This document shows positions 1,531-12,918 of a DNA stretch of 12,918 nucleotides, one piece after another. Position 1 is the first letter of the stretch. Each line of letters opens with the position of its first letter. Below the pieces are notes generated by a model. It worked only from the letters and a program-made list of their open reading frames with translations. It was not told the origin of the DNA and ran no database searches. The stretch lies in assembly GCA_000316135.1 (NCBI GenBank), contig JH994073.1, positions 1 through 12,918 of the forward strand. Direction: 5' to 3'. The translations under genes and the position numbers were made by a program. Origin of the DNA: Trachipleistophora hominis. Lineage: Eukaryota > Microsporidia > Pleistophoridae.

Positions 1531-1608
1531 AAGGACACGTGCTTAATGGTTAGAGTATGGGTCACCGGGTGGAAAGTTTCGCCTTCAAGTTCGACGGGAA
1601 CCTCCCTT
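1531..1608 (+). ncRNA. GC-rich, tRNA-sized candidate Pol III transcript
   Basis: A 78-base island of much higher GC than its surroundings. It has an A-box-like segment around 1541-1556 (GCTTAATGGTTAGAGT, able to form a 4-bp D-arm-like stem with two wobbles), a B-box-like AAGTTCGACGG at 1588-1598, and a T-rich run with TTTTT at 1613-1617 that could stop Pol III. It does not fold as a proper tRNA: anticodon and T stems do not pair and no U33 plus anticodon fits. A different hairpin is plausible, with GTTTC (1576-1580) pairing GGAAC (1597-1601) and GGG (1567-1569) pairing CCC (1604-1606). It may be a small ncRNA or a tRNA-derived relic. Confidence 0.3.
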
Positions 1609-1743
1609 CTTTCTTTTTACGGTTTGTAACACCGGTATATGACCAAAAGAATAACTCAATAAATCATAATGAGCAGATTAGTTTCTACGAATCAGAAGAA
1701 TATGTGTGGCAATAAAGTAAATGAACAATAATGAAACATATTT

Positions 1744-2395
1744 CTAGTTGAAAACTAGATACGCTGTTCCATTTGTGAAATATATGAATAGATTGGTATC
1801 TGTTAGTACGTTTTTGCTCTTATTTACCTTTATTTAAATTTATTCGAGCGTTCTCAACAACTCGTGTTTTTCTATAAGAATTAAAAAATTAGTTTCTAGA
1901 AAATGATAGCACTTTCACTAAACATCGACCAAAAACGACCGCTAGATAAATTTAAAAACACAGAAATAGCACAAGAGCATATAACTTTCTATTTACTACC
2001 GTAACATAAAATAATATTTTTTAATTGTTTCTCGAATCGACAAATCAGCTTGCAAATTATATTTTTATTATTAACTAGCTGCGCTATTCCGTTTGTGATA
2101 CGGAAATTTAAATTAGTATGTCTAGAACAAAAGTTGTGCTTCTTTGTTCTTAAATTCATTTTAAATCATCCATTTTACCTTCGTTTGCGCTTCTCATCAG
2201 AGATTAAAAAAATTAATCTTCCGCCGACATCGACAATTAATTCAAACATTGATCACAAATGGCTGCTGAGTGAGTTTAGGAACCTGAAAATTTCATATCA
2301 ATATACAACTTATTAATGGTAACGAAAAGATGAAATAACTTTTTTTGATTTTCTAGGATTGGCCAATCAGCTCACAAGTTGTCTTTTTATTATTA
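1744..2395 (-). repeat. Left array of the ~320-bp degenerate repeat family
   Basis: Two recognisable cores are read on the minus strand: AATCAGCTT at 2043-2051 and AATCAGCTC at 2365-2373, 322 bp apart. Each is flanked by the family's A/T-rich runs. Beyond the 2043 core come a TTTTTATTATTA block (2062-2073) and a block with CTAGCTGCGCTATTCC (2075-2090). That second block recurs in diverged form at 1744-1770 (CTAGATACGCTGTTCC). The internal poly-A block at about 2190-2220 is also matched at about 1861-1893, so at least two and a half units are present. The cores and blocks are also found at 5698-6050 and 10770-12670. Confidence 0.6.
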
Positions 2396-2756
2396 TGAAT
2401 ATTTTTATGATGATATACAAATAGTAACCTGATATAGAAATAATTACATTCTTGAACCATTAAAACAACGCTCAAAATTAGCGTATTTTTGTAAAATATT
2501 ACTTTTAAGATAGTATTTTATACCAATATAATAACAAATGACGCATTTAAACTGCTTTTAGTTGTGATTTCATTCAGCAGATAGGAGAATATTGTGAAAA
2601 CTGCTAACAAATAAATAACCGCTGGGATAAATTTTTGCTCCTGAGCCAACAGTCTTCAAGGCTACGGTCGACGCTCAATGTACCAGGAAAGTTTGTTTGA
2701 TGTGTGAGATGTTACTTAAACGGACTTTTAAGCAAAAAAATTTTTGACGTTAATGA

Positions 2757-2987
2757 CTAGTTAAACTGCGACTGTTAAAAAAGATTGAATTGATTAAAGT
2801 TAGGATAGAGGATGTTCTGTAGGAATTTGAACCTATTATTACCGATATAATCAAGATTAGCGATAATTCATTCTAACTTTTAAGGAACCTGATAGAAGTG
2901 ATCGAAGCTCTCGTAATAAATCAAGGGCTAAGAATTGTTAGCAAAGTCATCAAAAGCTTTTCAACGTTAAATAAATGTATAGAGTGA
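2757..2987 (+). pseudogene. Possible decayed helical coding relic with two internal stops
   Basis: Reading from 2757, 76 codons before a TGA at 2985-2987 contain only two stops (TAG at 2820, TAA at 2874). They encode an L/I/V/K/E-rich, amphipathic-helix-like sequence; the last piece begins LLRNLIEVIEAL. No start codon or CCC motif is present. It may be a relic or simply chance: open stretches of 21, 17 and 36 codons are not rare in this DNA. Confidence 0.15.
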
Positions 2988-3027
2988 TTTAATTTAGTAG
3001 CAAACTGCCATAAACAAGAAATCAACT

Positions 3028-4629
3028 TTATACATCTTCACTCATCTGGAAATATAAGCATGAGTAATCCTTGACCAACACTAAATTTTGGACGTCCTTC
3101 AATCGCTTAACACGCAAGTTAATAGGACTACCAATAAAGTATACTTTTCTAGCTTTTTCACAACAACTCACTATCAAATCCATACCTAACCAATCCACGC
3201 CCTGGCATCGCGAGAAATCCATTATTAAAATATCGGTGTACTCCGGTAATACAAATCGTTTTGCCGTCAAGAAACACAATAAGTAATCTACCACAATAAC
3301 CTTAATATTATCTGACTCAATCACATCCAGCGAATCATACAATGCAATCTTTCGTCGGCTTGCAATAATGTAATATGCCACGCAGATTCCCAGCCCAACC
3401 AATACGCCAACAATATACTGGCCAGTCAACCAGCAAATAAGGCACACAACAACAGAGATGCTATATTCATAGATTGATGTAGTAAAAATCGGCTCATAGA
3501 AAGAACTATATAAGAACCCGGCACCCATAACGAACGGTAACATACTTAGTACAAAATTCGGAACGTATCCCTTGATTGTAAGACCAAAAACTGCGATCAA
3601 AATCATTGCCAACGCGGAAACATACCCGTAGATCTTCAACGTTCCACCAGCCTTATAGAACGCAATTGAATAGCAAGCAACGAAGTAACATGGGATGAAC
3701 GTAAACAGATTAGAAAATCCCTGTGTCCCTAACTCGTCCGAAAAATCAAAATTCACTCCAGTCGAAATTTTGTATGCCGGCAGATTAACCGCGATGTGAA
3801 CAGAGTTAAAGAATATTACCGTCAAAATATTGAAGAAGTTGTACACAAATGAACGCCAGTTCAACGTAGATAGGTCTATACGACTCAAAACATAATTTGG
3901 GTATAAAATTTTAGCCTCCTTTATCGGTAACCAATTGTTATCACGCAAGTATTGCATCCGATCACTAGCGCCTACAAATATGAACGCGATACCGTAGAAC
4001 AACGTAATAATTATCAGGGTGTATAGTGGTATGAGGAAATCGGCACCTGCAAGTTTGAACTGCAGGATGAACAAAATAACGGCAACAGCTATAGCAATCG
4101 TACACAGCAACCAATACTTTTTTTCGTAGCCCTTGGGAACTAAGGCCGACCATCCCAAGGGAAACTGGGTGAGACCGATCGCACCAAGACAGCCGTTTAC
4201 GACAGCTTTCGGGATCAGAGAGATCAAGTGCCCAGCCCTTCCGTATTTTAGCAGGAGGCTGACAATTCCAAACCCTACGGAACAAATCAAAAGAATTGCG
4301 ATAAAATTAGTGATATAGCCATTCAACCCGCTGGTGTGTTTGTTGATTATCTTTCCGACGTTCTCCTCCATGAACGGTAAGCTCTCCACGATTACGCTGC
4401 TGATAATAGCAGCATCGATTTTACTGAAATAATTGAACAGTAACTGTGACCATATAGTAGAGTAAATGTAACAAAGCATGCCAATATTCTGCACAATAAT
4501 GTTTTGTTCGGGATCATCGCTCTTAAACATGGCTCGGCCATACGAAAGCATGTCCATCAGTTGAAAAATAATTGCCATCAACGAAGTAGAAATTAAAGCA
4601 GAAATGCTGAAAGTCCGCTTTGGATTCAT
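3028..4629 (-). CDS. SulP (SLC26)-family membrane permease with reduced STAS domain, 533 aa
   Basis: Multispanning transporter of the SulP superfamily, which moves anions or, in the fungal YGR125W/Vsb1-like branch, supports vacuolar basic amino-acid storage. The substrate cannot be told from sequence. Residues 1-430 hold about 10-12 hydrophobic segments. The first carries QLMDMLSYG (23-31), the SulP TM1 signature region. ELGTQGFSNLF (299-309) and FYKAGGT (324-330) match the conserved N-x-x-x-F and GG-T region of the core. Residues about 440-520 form a short STAS-like domain with LIMDFSRCQGVDWLGMDL (468-485). The usual Ser after the Asp is replaced by Trp. The start ATG has CCCC 11 bases upstream (4641-4644). 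It is a paralogue of the gene at 8311-9903, in the same orientation. Its GC content looks higher than its paralogue's. The family is sure; substrate and membrane are open. Confidence 0.92.
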   Translation of the reverse strand: MNPKRTFSISALISTSLMAIIFQLMDMLSYGRAMFKSDDPEQNIIVQNIGMLCYIYSTIWSQLLFNYFSKIDAAIISSVIVESLPFMEENVGKIINKHTSGLNGYITNFIAILLICSVGFGIVSLLLKYGRAGHLISLIPKAVVNGCLGAIGLTQFPLGWSALVPKGYEKKYWLLCTIAIAVAVILFILQFKLAGADFLIPLYTLIIITLFYGIAFIFVGASDRMQYLRDNNWLPIKEAKILYPNYVLSRIDLSTLNWRSFVYNFFNILTVIFFNSVHIAVNLPAYKISTGVNFDFSDELGTQGFSNLFTFIPCYFVACYSIAFYKAGGTLKIYGYVSALAMILIAVFGLTIKGYVPNFVLSMLPFVMGAGFLYSSFYEPIFTTSIYEYSISVVVCLICWLTGQYIVGVLVGLGICVAYYIIASRRKIALYDSLDVIESDNIKVIVVDYLLCFLTAKRFVLPEYTDILIMDFSRCQGVDWLGMDLIVSCCEKARKVYFIGSPINLRVKRLKDVQNLVLVKDYSCLYFQMSEDV

Positions 4630-4640
4630 TGACTATTTGA

Positions 4641-4644
4641 GGGG
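4641..4644 (-). promoter_or_regulatory. CCCC start-proximal motif of the first SulP gene
   Basis: Read on the minus strand, the context is TTTACCCCTC, with 11 bases between the run and the ATG at 4629. It matches the TACCCC context seen at the other SulP gene and at the first gene. Confidence 0.5.
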
Positions 4645-5697
4645 TAAATTACAACAATTTGTTTTTGATAGTGATGATTAATTAGCATTTTTTGGAGTTG
4701 GGAGGAAAAATTAATTTAAAGCATTTTTTAATAAAAAATGAACTTTTCTATTGGCTTTGCTTAATTAATAACAAAAATGAGCATTTCAGAAATAGATTAA
4801 AATATGTAATATATAAATTATACATGACGTTATTACACCTCTTTGATAAAATTTATTTATAAACAACTGAACCACATTACTTAAGTATAGTATCTGAAAA
4901 TATCAATCTATCGCTATACTTAGCTAACTACAATTTGAACTTCAGTATTTCATGATCAACAAGAAAATAAATTTTTGTTTTACTATGATTCATCTTCTAG
5001 CTCAGGCCGAATGGAACTTGCCAAGTATAAAGAACGCTAGCGAACAATGCACACATATTATAATTTTTGATGATTAAGTGAAAATATACACAAATGAAAC
5101 ACTTTGCTTTTTATTTCGAGTAACTTGAAAAAAAGTTTTTTCAGATTTTAGGCTTATCAGTTTTGATATCATGTCATGTTTATCAACAACTCCTTGTTCG
5201 ATGATTTTCAATGCTTGGATAGAAACTGCACAATACTGGATCCCAATATGTTGAACTCTTTTTCGCATCTTTGTATATTTTTTAAGTGAAGAGATCACTT
5301 AACATATAACGTAACATTAACTCTTACATAGTGTAAATAATCACCACTATTTATTGTCATTATTATATTTGCTGTTTGTCTGATTCTATTACTAGTTTTT
5401 TCAAAATAGCAATATTTGTAAGTATGGTAACTTTAGATACAAGGCGAATAAAACAATTTTTAATGTCAAACAAAAATAATTCTTAATGGTGCACAGATAT
5501 AGATAACAAACTCCCTTTACATATTCTACGTATTGTAACATTAGTGATGCGTATCAATAAAAATGTTACACTTTTTGTTGGAAATCGTTTTTTTTCCATT
5601 ATTCATTCTTTGTTCACTATCAATTCTAGGAATCTATCATAATTTGTTAACTTTAACAAGTATAAATGTTTTAAAATAGTTCTACATGGTAAATGTT

Positions 5698-6050
5698 AAA
5701 AACTAGCTACGCAATATAATTTATACATCCGAAGATACTTTAATACGTGTTTAATAAAACTTAATCTCATTTAGTACCATTTCTATGGTAATAACGCCTA
5801 ATCACGTGATTTTCTTTTTTCGATCGAGCCGTAAAAATCAATTTTCGGTCAGCATCAATGGTTTAGCAAATAGCTTTGGTGACAGATCACATCGTGGATT
5901 TACGAACATGAAGATTGTATGGCAACAAAATACTTTTCATTCGTTGCTTAAATTTTTAGATAAAATTTTTTATTTTTTCCAACCTAACAAATTAACTTGC
6001 GAGTTTTCTTTTAATTATTGTGGTGATTATCTAAAGATTAGTATGTTTTA
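5698..6050 (-). repeat. Minus-strand unit of the ~320-bp repeat family
   Basis: Read on the minus strand, it has the core ACTCGCAAGTTAATTTGTTAG followed by A-rich then T-rich DNA (about 5960-6005). It ends in a block at 5749-5772 that matches 11203-11226 at 22 of 24 positions by eye (one contains GATTAAGTTTTATTAAAC, the other GATTAAATTTTATTAAAC). Next comes a CGTAGCTAGTT block (about 5699-5711), in the same order as in the right array. The plus-strand AAGATTAGTATG near 6035-6045 matches AAATTAGTATG near 2110-2120. The intermediate body aligns loosely with the 10820-10910 copy. Confidence 0.55.
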
Positions 6051-6248
6051 ACCAGCAATAACAAGCAGCATAATACGTAATATACAAAGATATGTTTATG
6101 ATGACGAATGTGTTTGGCAATTTTACAGACAATGTTGGTTTAAATGGTTAAAACGTGATATTATTATGATATAACATATTACTCCCGTTTACTTTAATAT
6201 TTTTATATTAGTAGGTGTTTGTGTATGTATTCATATAGCTTATGGTAA

Positions 6249-6251
6249 CCC
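6249..6251 (+). promoter_or_regulatory. CCC start-proximal motif of the Cfd1-like gene
   Basis: GGTAACCC directly abuts the ATG at 6252, mirroring the arrangement at 312-317. Confidence 0.5.
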
Positions 6252-7085
6252 ATGTTATTCATTTCTGTAGTAAGCGGAAAAGGAGGCGTTGGCAAGTCAA
6301 CAATTGCTGCGCTTATAGCAGCAAAGTTGTCGAAGCAGGCGCCTACTCTGTTACTTGACTTCGATATATGCGGTCCATCGATAGGAAATATTTTCCCGGC
6401 AAGTGGAAAAGTTGTTAAAACTCGAACTGGTTTAAAACCTTTACAAGTTAATAACAGCTCCCTATATATCCTGTCCATGTCATCTCTAATAAAAAACGAT
6501 AGTTCGGTAATATGGCGAGCTCCACGCAAATTACAATTGTATGAAATGTTTTACAATAGTGCTTATGAGAATATACTCCAAAACACGACGGAAAGTGATC
6601 CCGATTCTTACGATATTCTCGACAAACACAATAACATAGGTAATAAAACCGCTCAAAAAAACGTTACTGTCGATGAAAGCTGCCAGCTTGGGTATAAATA
6701 CGTTGTAATTGACACTCCTCCGGGTATCACCATAGTCCATTCGTTTATTAAAGAGAAGAATACGAAGATATTGCTTGTTACAACAAGCCAAAATGTTGCC
6801 ATTTCAGATTCAATTAATACAATTAATTTTTTTGGTAAAATAAGCGGTATAATAGAAAATATGAGCGGGCTAAAATGTCCAAACTGCAAGAAAATTACAA
6901 ATATATATTCAAGAAACGGGGGATCACAACTTGCAGAAGAATTTAATATTCCTTTCTATGGAACGCTAGAAATTGATCAAAATATTTCACAGTTTATTGA
7001 AAATGGTACGTTGTACGAAAATATTAACTCTCTTGGTTGCAATAATGTTCTAGATACAGTTGTCAGAAAATTAGTTGGTTCTTGA
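6252..7085 (+). CDS. Cfd1/NUBP2-like Mrp-family P-loop ATPase, cytosolic Fe-S scaffold, 277 aa
   Basis: Mrp/NBP35-family ATPase that, with its partner, builds and hands on 4Fe-4S clusters in the cytosolic iron-sulfur assembly (CIA) pathway. Visible motifs are the deviant Walker A KGGVGKST (10-17), LDFDICGPSIG (35-45), WRAPRK (88-93), DTPPG (154-158), IENMSG (201-206) and CPNC (209-212). CPNC is the CPxC pair that bridges a cluster between two subunits in this family. The four-cysteine N-terminal cluster of Nbp35/NUBP1 is absent because Walker A begins at residue 10, so Cfd1/NUBP2 fits better. Residues about 110-147 are a polar N/D/T-rich stretch just before the YKYVVIDTPPG strand; canonical members have a short link there, so it looks like a lineage-specific insertion. 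The start is supported by adjacent CCC. The gene is divergent from the first SulP gene and convergent with the second. A candidate AATAAA is at 7200-7205. Confidence 0.93.
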   Translation: MLFISVVSGKGGVGKSTIAALIAAKLSKQAPTLLLDFDICGPSIGNIFPASGKVVKTRTGLKPLQVNNSSLYILSMSSLIKNDSSVIWRAPRKLQLYEMFYNSAYENILQNTTESDPDSYDILDKHNNIGNKTAQKNVTVDESCQLGYKYVVIDTPPGITIVHSFIKEKNTKILLVTTSQNVAISDSINTINFFGKISGIIENMSGLKCPNCKKITNIYSRNGGSQLAEEFNIPFYGTLEIDQNISQFIENGTLYENINSLGCNNVLDTVVRKLVGS

Positions 7086-8310
7086 TCGATTTCAAATATG
7101 TTTCAATACGTCTCCTCTGCTGTTAATACCGCCACCTATCACATGAAGCTATCGTTGTCTATATATATATGTCACGTTAATACGTTTTGTTAGCATTTAA
7201 ATAAAATATGAGTTTAAGTTGACATTAAATGAGTAGTTATAATAATTAAACGATTGGTTTATTATTCGATACGAAGGTGTTAAATAATAAAGTTAAAAGT
7301 ATTTTTTAATATAGCAGAGTCCGTTTTAAAATAGCACAAAATAATCGAATTTCTGGTACAGATACATTTGAATACTTCATAGATGCCCAAAAACGAAGTG
7401 TTTTTACTTTTTATTGCGTTAAAATTGTCATCGTGAATAACCGGCCACGACAACCACTTAGGAGAGAATTTTTCACCGATAATTATTCTTTGATAATATT
7501 TGAAAATATAAACTGCGAACAAATTGAGGTTAAGTATTTAAAGAATTTAAAAAACGTTTACCTGTTGGTAATTCGATAATTATATTCGTATATTGCCTCC
7601 TTAAAAATAATACAAAACTGGATAAATTTATTATGTGTCAACACATAGGATTTATTGGTAGCTCAGTTTCAAATTTAATACGCTAAATAAGTTAAAGTAT
7701 ATTTTTATTTAAGTTTTTTAAATACATCCAGTCCCATACAAATAATTACAATCTTCATGGGTAATATATGTTATACAAATATATTTAGATTATTTCAGGG
7801 CTTTCTACCAACCATATCATCGTCTATCAAAAAAGATAAACTAAAAATATGTGTTATATTTTACCTCATTAACTTGTAGTATCAAAAATTATATCAAAAA
7901 GATCTTTTTTGAATTATTTTTATGATATTCTAGAGAACATACACTAATATATTATTCTTGGCGTTTAATCAGCTATAATTTTGATGATACACGATTGGTT
8001 GTGTTGTGAGATGCTGTGAGTAAATAAAAATGCTTTTAGTTAAAAGAAGATGGTTAGTCTCATATATCCAATCAAAGCACATTATTTATCTTTCAATCGT
8101 CTTGAACATTGTAAAAATAGTTGCCAGTAAAAAAGTTTTAAATATATTGTTGGAAAGCAGTAATATTATTGAGGTCGCTATATTAACTCCTAATTCATGA
8201 ATTTGTGCACAGAAAAAATCCGAAATCAAATATATACCGGCAAGAAGCAACAATTCCATACTAAATCGTTTAATAAGACTACATGGAATAAAAATTTTAA
8301 TAATGGGTGT
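7086..8310. other. Convergent intergenic region, no confident gene
   Basis: AT-rich 1.2-kb gap between the 3' ends of the Cfd1-like gene and the second SulP gene. It contains a candidate polyadenylation signal (AATAAA, 7200-7205) and a possible spliced or decayed reading frame on the minus strand (7280-7622, listed separately). No clear copy of the repeat core is seen here, which sets it apart from the other long gaps. The remainder shows nothing I can support. Confidence 0.55.
7280..7622 (-). pseudogene. Possible gene relic, perhaps with a 49-nt intron
   Basis: A minus-strand open frame (7280-7522, stop at 7280) has protein-like composition, including GEKFSPKWLSWPVIHDD. It has no ATG; the frame opens after a stop upstream. 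If the 49-nt segment running from GTAAACG to TTCGCAG (about 7513-7561) is removed as an intron, the frame joins another open stretch (RRQYTNIIIELPT) without a stop. That stretch also runs back to a TGA before any ATG, and no CCC motif is present. I do not recognise the product. Either the 5' end is lost, making it a relic, or the match is chance. Confidence 0.2.
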
Positions 8311-9903
8311 CTATGTTTTCAACTGTTCTGCATTATTTAAAACCTTACAAATTTTATTAAACCGCTTTTCGTTAAAATTGAATGGAACGCCTACGATTAC
8401 GACTTTTTTATCGGGTTTATTAATAGCATCGTAGAGTAGGTCAGAACCAATCCAATCCACAGCCGGACACTCTAAAAGATCGATAACAATCTTTTCATCC
8501 GTAAAATCGTATTTTTTAAACTTGTTCATAGTCATAAAACAAAGTATAAAATCTATTTTTATACAGGTATAGCCTGCTAAAAATTCCGAGTAGGTAGACA
8601 CACGTTGTTCATTGCTTATAGCACGTCTTTTCAGCATAAAATAGAATGCCAAATGTATTAAAATGCCAGTGACAACGCCAAGAAAATAGTCCTCTGTTAA
8701 ATATGAAATCAAACTAATCACAAAAACAACAAGCTGCTCGAATACTTTCGTTTCAGAAATAACGGTTAGCAGCGTATCATAGATCATTGTCGATCCTATT
8801 AGTAGAGGTGGCATACATAGAAGAAATTTTGGAACGTATCCTCGGATAGAACAGCCAAACAACGCAACAAATACCAAAAATAAGCCACTAATGATTCCAT
8901 AAATTCTTTTTGTGCCGCCGCTCCTGTAAAAAGGACCAGAATAACACGATATGAAGTAACATGGTATAAAAGTGAATAGATTAGTATATCCTTGTGTTCC
9001 TAGCTCTGCAGAATAGTCAAATTCAATGTTCAAATCCATTTTGTAGCTTGGCAGATTGTAAGTAACATGTAGCAATGAGAAAAAAACACAAACTAAAACG
9101 GTTCTTAGATTTTTTAACAGAAACCCGAACTGAAGTGTTTCCAACTCAATCATATTAAATAACATGGAAGGATTGATAACCCTATTATCTCTTTCGTGCA
9201 GCCAACCATGTAATATCAATTCGTAAATTAAATCGTTCTTAAACTGGAATATGAAAAACGAATAAAATAAACACATACATACCACCATGCTCAACGGCAT
9301 TATGTACATTATATTTGGATATCGCTTTTGAAGAACGAATACGATAAGAACCACGGCAAAAGCAATTATGTACATCGATAGATGCTCATGATTATAACCG
9401 TTCGGCATAAGTTCTTGCAAACCTACGGGAATTTGAATTATTCCTATGGTTGCAAATATTCCGTAAACTACAGCTTTCGGAATTTGTAAAATCAGTCGGC
9501 CTAGCCTGAGTTTCATCATTATGATGCTGCTAAACGCAAATAAGAGACCAGTAACGAAGAACAAAAAAATACTATTCGTAACTAAAGCCTCCTCACTATC
9601 AACATTTTTTCGGACGTTTTTGCTCATCTTGTGGAAGAAACGAAAGTTTTCTACGATTGCACTGCTGACAATTCCTGCGGGAATAGTGGTAAATATGTTG
9701 TAAAAAATCATAGAGCTTATCGTTGGATATATGTAGAGTATCATACACACTGCGTCAATGTCTTTGCTTGAATTATAATTCTCCATAATTGCACCGCTAT
9801 ATGACAGCATATCCATTAATTCAAATATGCAAACCATAATCACACATGATAACATATTTCTTATTTTGAATTTATCTGAGTTTGCTGTCTCCACCTTCTT
9901 CAT
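8311..9903 (-). CDS. Second SulP (SLC26)-family permease with reduced STAS domain, 530 aa
   Basis: Paralogue of the 3028-4629 gene. Residues 1-430 hold about 10-12 hydrophobic segments, with ELMDMLSYS in TM1 (28-36). ELGTQGYTNLFTFIPCYF (300-317) is nearly identical to the paralogue, and FYRSGGTKRIYG (325-336) follows. The C-terminal STAS-like domain (about 445-515) has IDLLECPAVDWIGSDL (474-489), again with Trp after the Asp. I place the start at the ATG at 9903, preceded by CCCC (9911-9914) with 7 bases between. The open frame extends 13 codons further up to 9942, but that extension begins with GTG, an unlikely eukaryotic start. It is more AT-rich than its paralogue. The substrate is unknown: sulfate or other anion transport, or the amino-acid role of the fungal Vsb1-like branch, are both possible. 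The pair may be specialised for different membranes or stages, but the sequence does not show this. Confidence 0.92.
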   Translation of the reverse strand: MKKVETANSDKFKIRNMLSCVIMVCIFELMDMLSYSGAIMENYNSSKDIDAVCMILYIYPTISSMIFYNIFTTIPAGIVSSAIVENFRFFHKMSKNVRKNVDSEEALVTNSIFLFFVTGLLFAFSSIIMMKLRLGRLILQIPKAVVYGIFATIGIIQIPVGLQELMPNGYNHEHLSMYIIAFAVVLIVFVLQKRYPNIMYIMPLSMVVCMCLFYSFFIFQFKNDLIYELILHGWLHERDNRVINPSMLFNMIELETLQFGFLLKNLRTVLVCVFFSLLHVTYNLPSYKMDLNIEFDYSAELGTQGYTNLFTFIPCYFISCYSGPFYRSGGTKRIYGIISGLFLVFVALFGCSIRGYVPKFLLCMPPLLIGSTMIYDTLLTVISETKVFEQLVVFVISLISYLTEDYFLGVVTGILIHLAFYFMLKRRAISNEQRVSTYSEFLAGYTCIKIDFILCFMTMNKFKKYDFTDEKIVIDLLECPAVDWIGSDLLYDAINKPDKKVVIVGVPFNFNEKRFNKICKVLNNAEQLKT

Positions 9904-9910
9904 TTGGATC

Positions 9911-9914
9911 GGGG
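9911..9914 (-). promoter_or_regulatory. CCCC start-proximal motif of the second SulP gene
   Basis: Minus-strand context AATACCCCGATCCAA, then ATG at 9903. The motif lies inside the GTG-initiated 5' extension of the frame, which argues that the extension is untranslated promoter or leader DNA and fixes the start at 9903. Confidence 0.5.
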
Positions 9915-10407
9915 TATTGGTTATTGAAAGTTCTTTTATCACAACATTATCAGATACAACGTATCATACATAAGTTTCGATAATAATTAGAAAATATGAT
10001 TGATACCGCTAAATTAACCACATAATACTTTGCTTTTGATGTGTGAACGTAATATAACCCCTTTTCCAACATTTTTACAGCCCGTTATTTTTGAGAGGTA
10101 AGTTCAGTAATCGATCAGAAGGTTCATACTGTGAACAGAGTGTTAATGTTAATATAATCACAGTATAATTTCAGTATAATAATTAAAAAAATAGATACTC
10201 GCTGTCATTTCACATTAATCGTAAGAATTATGTCAAATGTCAATAATAAATTCAAATATAACTAAAATAATATGTAAAAAAGTATTATTATATCTATAAA
10301 TTGCACGAAACAACTGTATATGTACTAAAAAATTTTATACATCTATTTAAATATACAAGCAAAACGTGTAACATAGAATACGTGTATACTATAAATTTTA
10401 TCTGGGA

Positions 10408-10680
10408 ATGAAAGGGCAATATTATGTTTTCGGAACATATTCTCTTCCCTACCAATCTACCATATTAAATCCAGTCAACCAGTGCCACTTTATTATAAGA
10501 ACATGGGCATATATAATGAATAATACTGAAATTGCACCGCAAAACAACGGCCTCTGTAGCCACTGTCGGTACTTGACACACCGAGAGATTTTTATTAAAT
10601 GCTCTAGCGAAGATGTAATTATTAATTCAGCGAATTCTCACAAGGCGAAATACTACACATTACCAAAAAACGTATCGTAG
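10408..10680 (+). CDS. Doubtful small ORF, 90 aa
   Basis: Starts with ATG and ends in TAG at 10678-10680. Its GC looks higher than the flanks. The product has a CSHC pair (residues about 50-53) and a further Cys near 65, so a small metal-binding fragment is conceivable, but I do not recognise it. There is no CCC motif in front of the ATG (context CTGGGA-ATG), unlike the four confident genes, and no signal peptide or membrane segment. It may be a small gene, a fragment of a mobile-element protein, or chance. Confidence 0.28.
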   Translation: MKGQYYVFGTYSLPYQSTILNPVNQCHFIIRTWAYIMNNTEIAPQNNGLCSHCRYLTHREIFIKCSSEDVIINSANSHKAKYYTLPKNVS

Positions 10681-10769
10681 AAGCCAATAGCACAAATTCG
10701 CCGTTGAGGTTCCAGTAACTCTACTGCATAACCACTCAAATATTTCAAATGTATTAATCATCATCATTT

Positions 10770-11345
10770 CATAAAAATAAAAAGACTACTCACAATCACG
10801 AACTTATTGTTCTGTTCAAGAAAAAATAAAAAATTTTTTTCAATGTTTTGTTAGAAAATAATAATTTATGACTGTTTCACGATTTCGACGTTCGAAAATT
10901 CGCACAACAATCTTTTGTGACTGATATTCAAAGAAAACACTGACGCTAGTCATATTGTAAGAAAACAACTCTCGCAAGCTGATTAACCAGTTTGATGGAA
11001 AAATCAATCTGTTTTACTTATTTTTCTACAACAAATAGTAATTTACACTGCGCTATATAATTCTAATGTTTATAAACTTACTCCACAAACTTTTAGTAAA
11101 AATATTTCGGTGAAATACTAACTCTCGTCAGGAATTATTTTTAAATCCCCGTTGACGATGACAACTACGTGACTTAAGTTTTCTTAAAATAGAAATAGAG
11201 CTAAATAAGATTAAATTTTATTAAACTCATGCAAATACACCTTTCTTTTTATAAAAATGATAGCATATCTGGTCACTCAATAATAAAAAAGCAACTCACA
11301 AGCTGATCAGTCAGTTTGTAAAAAGCAAAAAATTTTTTTCCACGT
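10770..11345 (+). repeat. Right array of the ~320-bp repeat family, first part
   Basis: Three plus-strand cores. A diverged one is near 10797-10820 (GAACTTATTGTTCTGTTCAAG, followed by A then T runs). AAGCTGAT with CCAGTTT is at 10976-10993, and AAGCTGATCAGTCAGTTTG is at 11300-11318. The last two are 324 bp apart. The block starting GGAATTATTTTTAAATC at 11131 lies 169 bp before the 11300 core; its counterpart in the left array lies 169 bp from the core at 2051. Blocks TAATAAAAAAGC and GATAGCATATCTGGTCACTC precede the 11300 core, paralleling the left copies. Confidence 0.6.
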
Positions 11346-11569
11346 TTTTGTACGTGTTAAAACTATTACCACCTCATATCAATATTAAATAGAGTATCTT
11401 CTTTAAGTAAAATTTATGTATTTATCAATGAACATTTACCGATGATTTTATTATTGACATAATTCATCGGCTTTATTTTGGTATCCATCCTGATAGCTAG
11501 GGAAATATTTTATCTTATTCTATAGATTTACGCGTATATTAGTTATGTACTTTGTTTTATAAATTTTTA

Positions 11570-11612
11570 AAGCGACACCAGTGGTTAATAGTTTTTTAAA
11601 TTGTCTTTGTTC
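11570..11612 (+). repeat. Diverged repeat core
   Basis: GCGACACCAGTGGTTAATAGTT (11572 onward, then T-rich) aligns with the core near 12565 (ACTTGCAAACTGGTTGAATAG). It lies about 278 bp after the 11300 core. It is degenerate, and by-eye alignment is the only support. Confidence 0.3.
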
Positions 11613-11804
11613 TTTATAAATTCGTTCGGTTCGAATTAACTATTCGCATGTTTTTTATCGATAAAGGATCGCGATAACATCGTATACTCGTTAAATAAAA
11701 TGAAAATTTCTATACTTTTTCACATATTAAGGCAACGATGTAGCCATATCGATTAATAATTATAAAACTGGTAAGAATATGCACCGAGCAGAATGAGCTT
11801 GTGT

Positions 11805-11885
11805 TTCTACAAAAATATTACACGGTCACTGTTTATATTTAACTTTTTTAAAAGCTCGCAAACTGAATCGTTTTAGTTAATTTAA
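11805..11885 (+). repeat. Diverged repeat unit fragment
   Basis: Contains AAAGCTCGCAAACTGAATCG (11851-11870), matching the GCAAACTG core of the 12565 copy, preceded by a CACGGTCACTG block that resembles the GGTCACTC block before the 11300 core. It is about 282 bp after the core near 11578. Confidence 0.4.
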
Positions 11886-12539
11886 CTCTATATTTTTTAT
11901 ATTACTTTTAGACACTGAAAAGACAACCTCAAATTAGGCGACCTTCATGTAAAGTTAAAAGATACGTACAAAAACTTCCTCCATCATGAATAATTTTTTC
12001 TTTGATTTAGGTAATAAATCATGTATCGAAACCAGCGTATTTTTTAGACTCTATAAATAAATAAGAAATCTGAATTAACTAAAAAAAGCAAGAGCATATA
12101 TTTTACTTTGCGGTTATTTCACAAAGCAAAATAATTCCATATTTATAACATTCAGCTCTTAAAATCAGCTCTTCTCATGCCAATACTAAACGACGTTTGC
12201 TTTTAAAGTAACATATATAGTTAAAAATATATTCGCGGCATACCCGTAAACGTTTTTACATATCTCAGCGCTTTTTCGGTACGTTTTCGCTGCAAATAAA
12301 TAACCAGCATCTTTTATTGCTATTATTGTCATAGAACAAGAAAGCAAGAAATCGTTGCACAAATTGATAGCTAATTATGATGCAAATGCATAATATAAGA
12401 AAATTAGTCCTGTGGGAATGTATAATATAATATGTTTTTATTCTGTTGACTAATATTTTGTACATATAGTTGCATTCACATCGGTAATTTTCTGGTATAT
12501 TTCAAATAATATATATTGATAAGAAGTTCAAATTGTCAT

Positions 12540-12670
12540 TCATTCAACATTGATAAAAGGACAACTTGCAAACTGGTTGAATAGTTCAAGAAAAACAAAA
12601 ATTAATTCTCTTTCAGTAAAGAATAAAATGATGGCTATCATTCAATTTAAAAACCACAAAATTCCGTCAA
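12540..12670 (+). repeat. Repeat unit copy near the window end
   Basis: Core ACAACTTGCAAACTGGTT (12561-12578) is followed by GTTCAAGAAAAACAAAAATT, the same A-run order as in the other copies. The distance from the previous recognisable core is about 710 bp, room for one lost unit in between. Confidence 0.5.
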
Positions 12671-12918
12671 ATTCTCTTACCAACGATGTGTAATTAAAAT
12701 ATTATTGCCAACCAAAGAATAAATTTTTTCGCAATCGGATGAAAAATGAAAACTACGTAAACGCAACTATATTAGTGTTGAAATTTCGATAAAATAAGTT
12801 TAATTCTTTTGCAAGTATGCTAATTTAACCATAATATTTATAACTAGTATAGTACAGTGAATATTAAACAAAAACGACTCATGGTTGTACTTTCCTTTTT
12901 GGTTTTATCCGATAAACG

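Follow-up and report, generated by a model that had tools for sequence, protein, structure and literature searches.

What is the degenerate repeat that recurs between the genes of this stretch of DNA? The window analysed here (12,918 nucleotides) makes up one entire contig in an assembly of 5.51 Mb from a microsporidian close to Vavraia culicis. A preliminary description had listed nine cores of the repeat in it, and had proposed that the family fills the intergenic DNA as an old satellite, a MITE or LTR array, or a structural chromosome element. A profile built from 28 aligned copies located outside the window matched seven stretches of the window with scores of 39.6 to 264.5 bits, far above the top score (9.7 bits) obtained in 200 dinucleotide shuffles, and further copies were present elsewhere in the genome. 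The repeat family is thus real and genome-wide, and it withstood the two refuting conditions set in the preliminary description, namely scores no better than shuffled sequence and a lack of copies elsewhere in the genome. The seven stretches corresponded to the cores at about 2043, 2365 and 5990 on the minus strand and at about 10797, 10976, 11300 and 12570 on the plus strand. The two remaining cores were not recovered: the one at 11578 had no profile match and gave 4.9 bits (E 0.48) with the 5' end model, on the other strand, and the one at 11860 gave -0.6 bits with the profile and 3.5 bits (E 1.3) with the 5' end model. The reported spacings of 322 bp on the left (repeats at 2028 and 2350) and 324 bp (10976 to 11300) held, and the copies behind both of them are head-to-tail neighbours. 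That the family "fills" the intergenic DNA was an overstatement, because, of the approximately 6,860 bases of intergenic DNA in the interval 1744-12670, the matched stretches account for about 1,655 (24%); the region 7086-8310 contained no profile match. Rfam returned nothing for the whole window at gathering scores, or for the stretch 1480-1680 at E values up to 1.

The family unit is about 325 bp long, starts with 5'-TC and finishes with a hairpin, eight bases and CTAG-3'. The 3' end pattern (CTAG, at most two mismatches) was found 98 times in the genome and twice in the control, and the 5' end pattern 93 times and not at all in the control. For 35 of the 93 5' ends, the same strand carried a 3' end less than 1 kb downstream, involving 34 different 3' ends in all, versus a single pair on opposite strands, and the distance spanned by the paired ends was 311-345 bp in 27 of the 35 cases. 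Five more same-strand pairs were found in reverse order, the arrangement expected of tandem neighbours. A T directly followed 40 of 42 3' ends (at most two mismatches, collected loci); alignment A2 comprises 39 of 40 ends, L023:2539-2579 being omitted because an A rather than a T comes after it. As read from the alignment, the terminus is CTRR in 29 of the 32 aligned copies and TTRR in three. The hairpin, with the consensus TTCCGTTTTATAAACGGAA, stands eight bases ahead of CTAG; its cells were paired in 84.3% and 91.3% of cases in two tests, neither of which revealed covariation in excess of shuffles. The 5' end consists of the TC start and about 50 conserved bases. TC was observed at the model start in 19 of the 32 aligned copies, and variable TCA/TCAT repeats blur the exact terminus: in the 16 bases preceding the model start, TCA was four times and TCAT eight times commoner than further out (19 copies). 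No coding capacity was recognised in the element, an exact search of viral contigs with the 5' pattern gave no match, and a search of prokaryotic genome contigs with the 3' pattern found none.

Across the 32 aligned copies, both ends were better conserved than most of the interior, where one ten-base block was conserved to the same degree as the ends. Such ends, together with an ATTGG in the 5' end that we take to be a CCAAT box core, might be expected of an element that selection maintains for a structural or regulatory role (as centromere, origin or promoter module), possibly derived from a Helitron. However, the 32 copies differ from the consensus by 13.8-43%, three of the four aligned window copies by 35-39%, and conserved ends would be expected anyway if only copies with working ends had spread. 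Judged by sequence conservation alone, nothing favoured a structural chromosome role, and we consider selection for such a function very unlikely.

The copy in locus L013 interrupts another dispersed repeat, of which the uninterrupted sequence or close variants were present at five distinct places (L020, L024, L055/L002, L058/L036 and L029). On the Helitron strand, the empty site reads ...TTAA|TATATAACAT and the filled site ...TTAA|TC(TCATAATAAT...CTAG)|TATATAACAT. The L013 copy lies precisely between A and T and, one shared T apart, its insertion duplicated no target bases; the empty site gives TC as the first bases of this copy. Since this T is common to both sides, the letters also fit an insert starting with C and a 1-base duplication of T; A|TC...CTAG|T is the conventional reading of the ambiguous T in Helitron insertions. 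The empty-site search compared the flank joins free of N from 30 of the 32 aligned copies with the collected loci, and the spanning matches were mostly the copies' own ends or other copies; the one locus followed up, L013, yielded the single empty site found.

The empty site also bears on other classes of short dispersed elements. A SINE, a MITE or a solo LTR would likewise be short, dispersed and lacking in recognised coding capacity, half of the distinct family matches in the collected genome loci were full length (43 of 84), and the TCA/TCAT simple repeats at one end resemble the tail of a SINE. On the other hand, terminal inverted repeats were absent, TCATAATAAT... and ...GCGCAGCTAG not being inverted copies, and the ends were not TG...CA. 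Target-site duplication was not convincing either: in 500 permutations, the three scores computed on 18 copies were attained 61, 79 and 27 times, the last being borderline, and were thus not clearly above shuffled pairings, while the empty site duplicates nothing beyond the shared T. A MITE was rejected because the family lacks both terminal inverted repeats and target-site duplication, and a solo LTR because it lacks TG...CA ends and a target-site duplication of 4-6 bp. The SINE reading, prompted by the simple repeats at one end, was dropped after the target-duplication test and the empty site. Altogether, membership in one of these classes appears highly improbable.

The tandem copies raise the case of an old satellite, that is, a head-to-tail array with a repeat period near 325 bp whose units decayed and were scattered. 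The neighbours at 322 and 324 bp are in line with it, as are seven tandem junctions in the collected loci, four of which are a clean CTRR|TC and three are not clean. However, most copies in these loci are solitary and have unrelated flanks and sharp ends, the 98 3' ends and 93 5' ends are spread over 73 contigs, and Tandem Repeats Finder detected no array in the window. The seven junctions also compare with 84 distinct matches, and the precise insertion in L013 contradicts this origin, to which we attach almost no probability.

Given their termini, the insertion between A and T and the empty site, we are highly confident that the repeats are decayed copies of one non-autonomous Helitron family of about 325 bp, a new family of a known kind. 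The preliminary description was correct in seeing a mobile repeat of some age, partly in tandem, but a satellite, a MITE and an LTR array all misfit.

The best preserved copy in the window (2074..2398, minus strand) scored 264.5 bits with the profile made without window copies and was 14.8% from the consensus. It runs from TC at 2398-2397 to CTAG at 2078-2075, with T (2074) as the next base; the 3' end model gave 61 bits (2074-2114) and the 5' end model 55.6 bits. Its 3' terminal hairpin lies at 2087..2105 on the minus strand, as read from the sequence and from columns 333-351 of alignment A1. A second copy (1754..2072, minus strand; 139.3 bits, 3' end model 28.7 bits) adjoins it to form a minus-strand head-to-tail pair with the junction CTAG|TTAATAATAAAAA. 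A diverged, nearly full-length copy at 5702..6022 (minus strand, 83.6 bits, a row in alignment A1) has a decayed hairpin and has retained CTAG|T. On the plus strand, a 5' fragment covering model positions 1-178 (10769..10950, 56.5 bits) is followed, 11 bases on, by the next copy, which is nearly full length (10958..11272; 72.4 bits over 10962-11265; also in A1) and finishes with CTGG at 11269-11272. Straight after this CTGG, another 5' fragment (11273..11360, plus strand, model positions about 1-88; 39.6 bits over 11279-11360) opens with TC, giving the junction CTGG|TCACTCAATAATAAAAAAG. The last copy (12549..12857, plus strand) is diverged and nearly full length (model positions 5-321), with 53.5 bits and 33 bits for the 5' end model. 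All these Helitron copies look long dead. They lie among genes encoding two SulP-family transporters on the minus strand (3028..4629, PF00916 E 3.6e-13, 83% identity to VCUG_02561 of Vavraia culicis floridensis; and 8311..9942, PF00916 E 3.4e-9) and, on the plus strand, a Cfd1/Nbp35-type Fe-S P-loop NTPase (6252..7085, PF10609 E 2.3e-47; E 1.5e-28 against the PDB CFD1 chain 6g2g).

According to PMC4038834, the Lep1 non-autonomous Helitrons are a lepidopteran family with horizontal transfer that is also present in the microsporidian Nosema bombycis. As described there, Lep1 and the present family are both short and non-autonomous, with 5'-TC, 3'-CTRR, a palindrome near the 3' end, A|T insertion and a microsporidian host; ours differs in being old and numerous in its own genome, a distinction drawn from the description of Lep1 and not from its sequence. 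Coding Helitrons of the same lineage, with PF14214 ORFs, are listed in PMC4202319 for V. culicis (one Helitron family), N. bombycis, N. ceranae and Hamiltosporidium; its table has none for Trachipleistophora hominis, for which coding Helitrons are reported in PMC3486916. These two reports rest on coding sequence and, in their accessible sections, hold no 325-bp non-coding family with ends. PMC5876387 describes Helraiser/Helibat1 as an autonomous element, reconstructed from bat copies, with ends of about 150 bp; its circles join TC directly to CTAG, and Helitron tandem arrays are reported for plants and bats. By this description, Helraiser shares with our family the 5'-TC, the hairpin then CTAG-3', the A|T target and the absence of duplication, and the CTRR|TC found in four of seven junctions is only a genomic counterpart of the TC-CTAG joint in its circles.

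To the observed ends, copy numbers, A|T insertion at one empty site and CTRR|TC junctions, a mechanism can be fitted whose enzyme and rolling-circle steps we infer from known Helitrons. The element would carry the two ends needed by a Helitron transposase (HUH-nuclease/helicase) acting in trans. This protein would nick one strand at the 5' TC, the strand would be peeled off by helicase-driven rolling-circle replication until the hairpin/CTAG stop, and it would then be joined between A and T. Occasional read-through of the stop may have left head-to-tail copies, which would account for the spacings of 322-324 bp.

No intact transposase was found, and a PF14214 search gave zero matches in the element's own genome and equally in the control genomes. 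A PIF1 helicase remnant is located elsewhere in the genome (C14), and Helraiser, which it resembles, was its sole match in the PDB at E values up to 1 (E 0.0011). Its tie to the 325-bp family is unproven because no matching 3' end lies nearby (best 12.4 bits, E 0.16). The transposase could plausibly have come from the coding Helitrons of this microsporidian lineage.

Helitron fossils thereby explain roughly a quarter of the window's intergenic DNA, as well as dispersed repeats at many other sites in the genome. Annotators would have been misled by the repeat classes proposed initially, and the defined pair of ends can now be used to annotate related genomes. The empty site and the tandem junctions record insertion of the rolling-circle type for a microsporidian.

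Another dispersed and apparently mobile element, about 46 bp long, was observed at approximately 100 places in the same genome. It has no inverted ends and no tail and is too short to encode a protein, and many copies have direct duplications on either side, each about 7-12 bp long (L067 and L074, with more than five mismatches, as well as L064 and one duplicate, were omitted from this analysis). Unless it represents the minimal remnant of some known transposon, it might conceivably rank among the smallest of all mobile DNAs and transpose by a route not described so far, an idea that we regard as rather doubtful. One Helitron copy is inserted inside a 46-bp element, and one 46-bp copy is apparently inserted inside a Helitron.

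The repeat unit proposed in the preliminary description proved genuine: a profile of 28 copies from outside the window recovered seven window stretches scoring 39.6–264.5 bits (best of 200 dinucleotide shuffles, 9.7 bits), a score that is not independent, as these copies came from loci found by window queries, chiefly via the copy at 2074–2398. Two of the cores proposed there, at 11578 and 11860, were supported neither by the full-length profile nor by the end model. The 322-bp pair and the copy at 5975 were also recovered by a direct-repeat search of the window. The window constitutes the whole of contig C106 (12,918 bp) in an assembly of 5,508,218 bases in 119 contigs. Compared with its own genome, it gave at least 64 matches, mostly 70–80% identical, with higher values for short ones, and the query 1990–2420 gave at least 49, self included. 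The examined loci, which were chosen for matching the element and are thus no random sample, contained 84 distinct element matches (43 full copies, 19 5′ pieces, 19 3′ pieces, and 3 internal pieces); seven of the pieces adjoin N or a locus edge. Of the genome matches listed for the window, three, to 157–258, 2639–2740, and 11355–11407, did not overlap Helitron copies. The first two of these stretches both match positions 13432–13544 of contig C75, on opposite strands and at 73–74% identity, and may represent a third small repeat.

When correctly oriented, most of the examined copies share the first and last model positions and have unrelated flanks. The unit starts with TCATAATAATAAAAAGACAACT... 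in the 2074–2398 copy (minus strand), and the family consensus ends with ...TTCCGTTTTATAAACGGAATAGCGCAGCTAG. These are the Helitron features described in excerpts of PMC4038834 and PMC5876387, in which the 5′ end is TC, the 3′ end is CTRR with a palindrome close by, and insertion is between A and T. With two mismatches allowed, the 3′ end pattern had 98 genome matches against 2 for the control; with three allowed, the 5′ end pattern had 93 against 0. A 3′ end was located within 1 kb downstream of 35 5′ ends, involving 34 distinct 3′ ends, and pairing otherwise amounted to one opposite-strand pair and five same-strand pairs in reverse order; no partner was found within 1 kb for the other ends at these thresholds. 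The pairs spanned 311–345 bp in 27 of 35 cases and 362–811 bp in the other eight. Among 42 distinct 3′ ends of the examined loci with up to two mismatches, the following base was T in 40 and A in 2; for 14 ends with three or four mismatches, which include some chance matches, it was T in 10, A in 2, and C in 2. The hairpin pairs exhibited no covariation beyond shuffles, as is expected of dead copies, but this gives no support either. The conserved 5′ end (window 2360–2375 and others) contains ATTGG, a CCAAT-box core, and a regulatory side effect is possible.

The empty-site search covered only the examined loci and found one such site. The Helitron copy of locus L013 (contig C16) lies between two halves of another dispersed sequence, uninterrupted copies of which were observed in L020, L024, L055/L002, L058/L036, and L029. 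On the Helitron strand, the empty site of L024 reads ...CTTTAATTAA/TATATAACAT, the other empty copies being the same or having few differences, and the filled site of L013 reads ...CTTTTATTAA/TCTCATAATAAT...CTAG/TATATAACAT. The 331-bp insert, with TC as its first and CTAG as its last bases, lies between A and T. Like all Helitron insertions, it has one T that both sides share, so the insert boundary is set by convention; no duplication extends beyond this T. A 25-base pattern of the uninterrupted site, with three mismatches allowed, matched 25 times, against 0 for the control.

Seven head-to-tail junctions were found in the examined sequences. CTRR is directly followed by TC at four of them (L001, L002, L003/L010, and window 11272 to 11273); of the others, bases are missing at the junction of the window pair at 2073, and those of L043 and L036 deviate from this form. 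Excerpts of the Helraiser paper (PMC5876387) describe the same direct joining of a CTRR-type end to TC in circles, and cite tandem arrays for plants and bats. In five cases (L011, two in L032, L037, and window 10769–10962), a 5′ fragment stops 2–12 bases short of the following copy, which has the same orientation, a pattern that an interruption and resumption of rolling-circle copying might leave.

Judging from its divergence, the family is old, since 32 aligned copies were 66.7% identical on average (range 0.47–0.93) and 13.8–43% from the consensus. Conservation was 0.84–0.91 over the first 60 alignment columns, 0.86–0.89 over the last 26, and 0.62–0.85 in the interior, apart from a single block that reached 0.90. 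The sequence examined contained no intact transposase, though the PF14214 search of the genome could not have demonstrated absence. A PIF1 helicase remnant (37.2 bits; PIF1, 3.1e-9) lies between two host genes on contig C14 (L063:6393–6551, minus strand), with no recognisable end of the family nearby. Helraiser was its sole PDB match (E 0.0011), and it is the relic of a Helitron-type helicase. A transposase source within the lineage is likely, given the PF14214 ORFs reported from V. culicis in excerpts of PMC4202319. Coding Helitrons have been reported for the microsporidian lineage of Trachipleistophora/Vavraia, and Lep1 in N. bombycis. Among the papers listed for Helitrons with microsporidia, Trachipleistophora, or Vavraia, none was seen to describe a non-autonomous family of 325 bp from the Vavraia lineage, although it may carry a name in sources beyond these listings, such as supplementary repeat libraries. 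As far as these sources show, the family is new and its kind already known.

The sequence hosting the empty site belongs to a dispersed element about 46 bp long (consensus TAAGACTTGTCTGTCATAAGGGGTCAATCTTTAATTAATATATAAC), whose first 20 bases matched the genome 100 times when three mismatches were allowed, against 1 for the control. The element occupies about 100 places outside the window (e.g., in L080, L092, L103, L058, and L013). Many copies are flanked by 7–12 bp target-site duplications, clear cases being ATTAAATG (L080), AATTAATG (L103), and TACTATATTATG (L092). The mean left–right flank match in 44 of 46 copies was 5.66, above all 300 re-pairings (mean 4.40), and in an earlier set of 26 copies the observed mean was reached in none of 2000 re-pairings. 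The flank score was at least 7 in 13 of the 44 copies, and the duplication is thus not present in every copy. No inverted ends or tail were found in this element, and its 3′ part had no match in the window. One copy appears nested in a Helitron in L058, the L013 Helitron is nested in another copy of the element, and Helitron ends abut the element in L040 and L089. To our knowledge, it fits no known family, and no such unit was among the papers listed on short interspersed elements or target-site duplications in microsporidia.

A block at window 1535–1620 carries tRNA-like A- and B-box words and a T-run; it was recognised neither by ARAGORN, with introns also allowed, nor by Rfam. Of the four main genes, two encode SulP transporters and one a Cfd1-like Fe-S NTPase, and the fourth is a 348-aa ORF that matched no Pfam family. 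By eye, C-runs were seen just 5′ of their likely starts, in keeping with the CCC signal of microsporidia that excerpts of PMC3486916 describe in T. hominis. The SulP protein encoded at 3028–4629 shares 83% identity along its entire length with VCUG_02561 of Vavraia culicis floridensis. The two diverged SulP genes (3028–4629 and 8311–9942) lie on the same strand on either side of the Cfd1-like gene. A 110-bp stretch common to both, with 70% DNA identity, was detected by the direct-repeat search, and the pair is likely an old local duplication.
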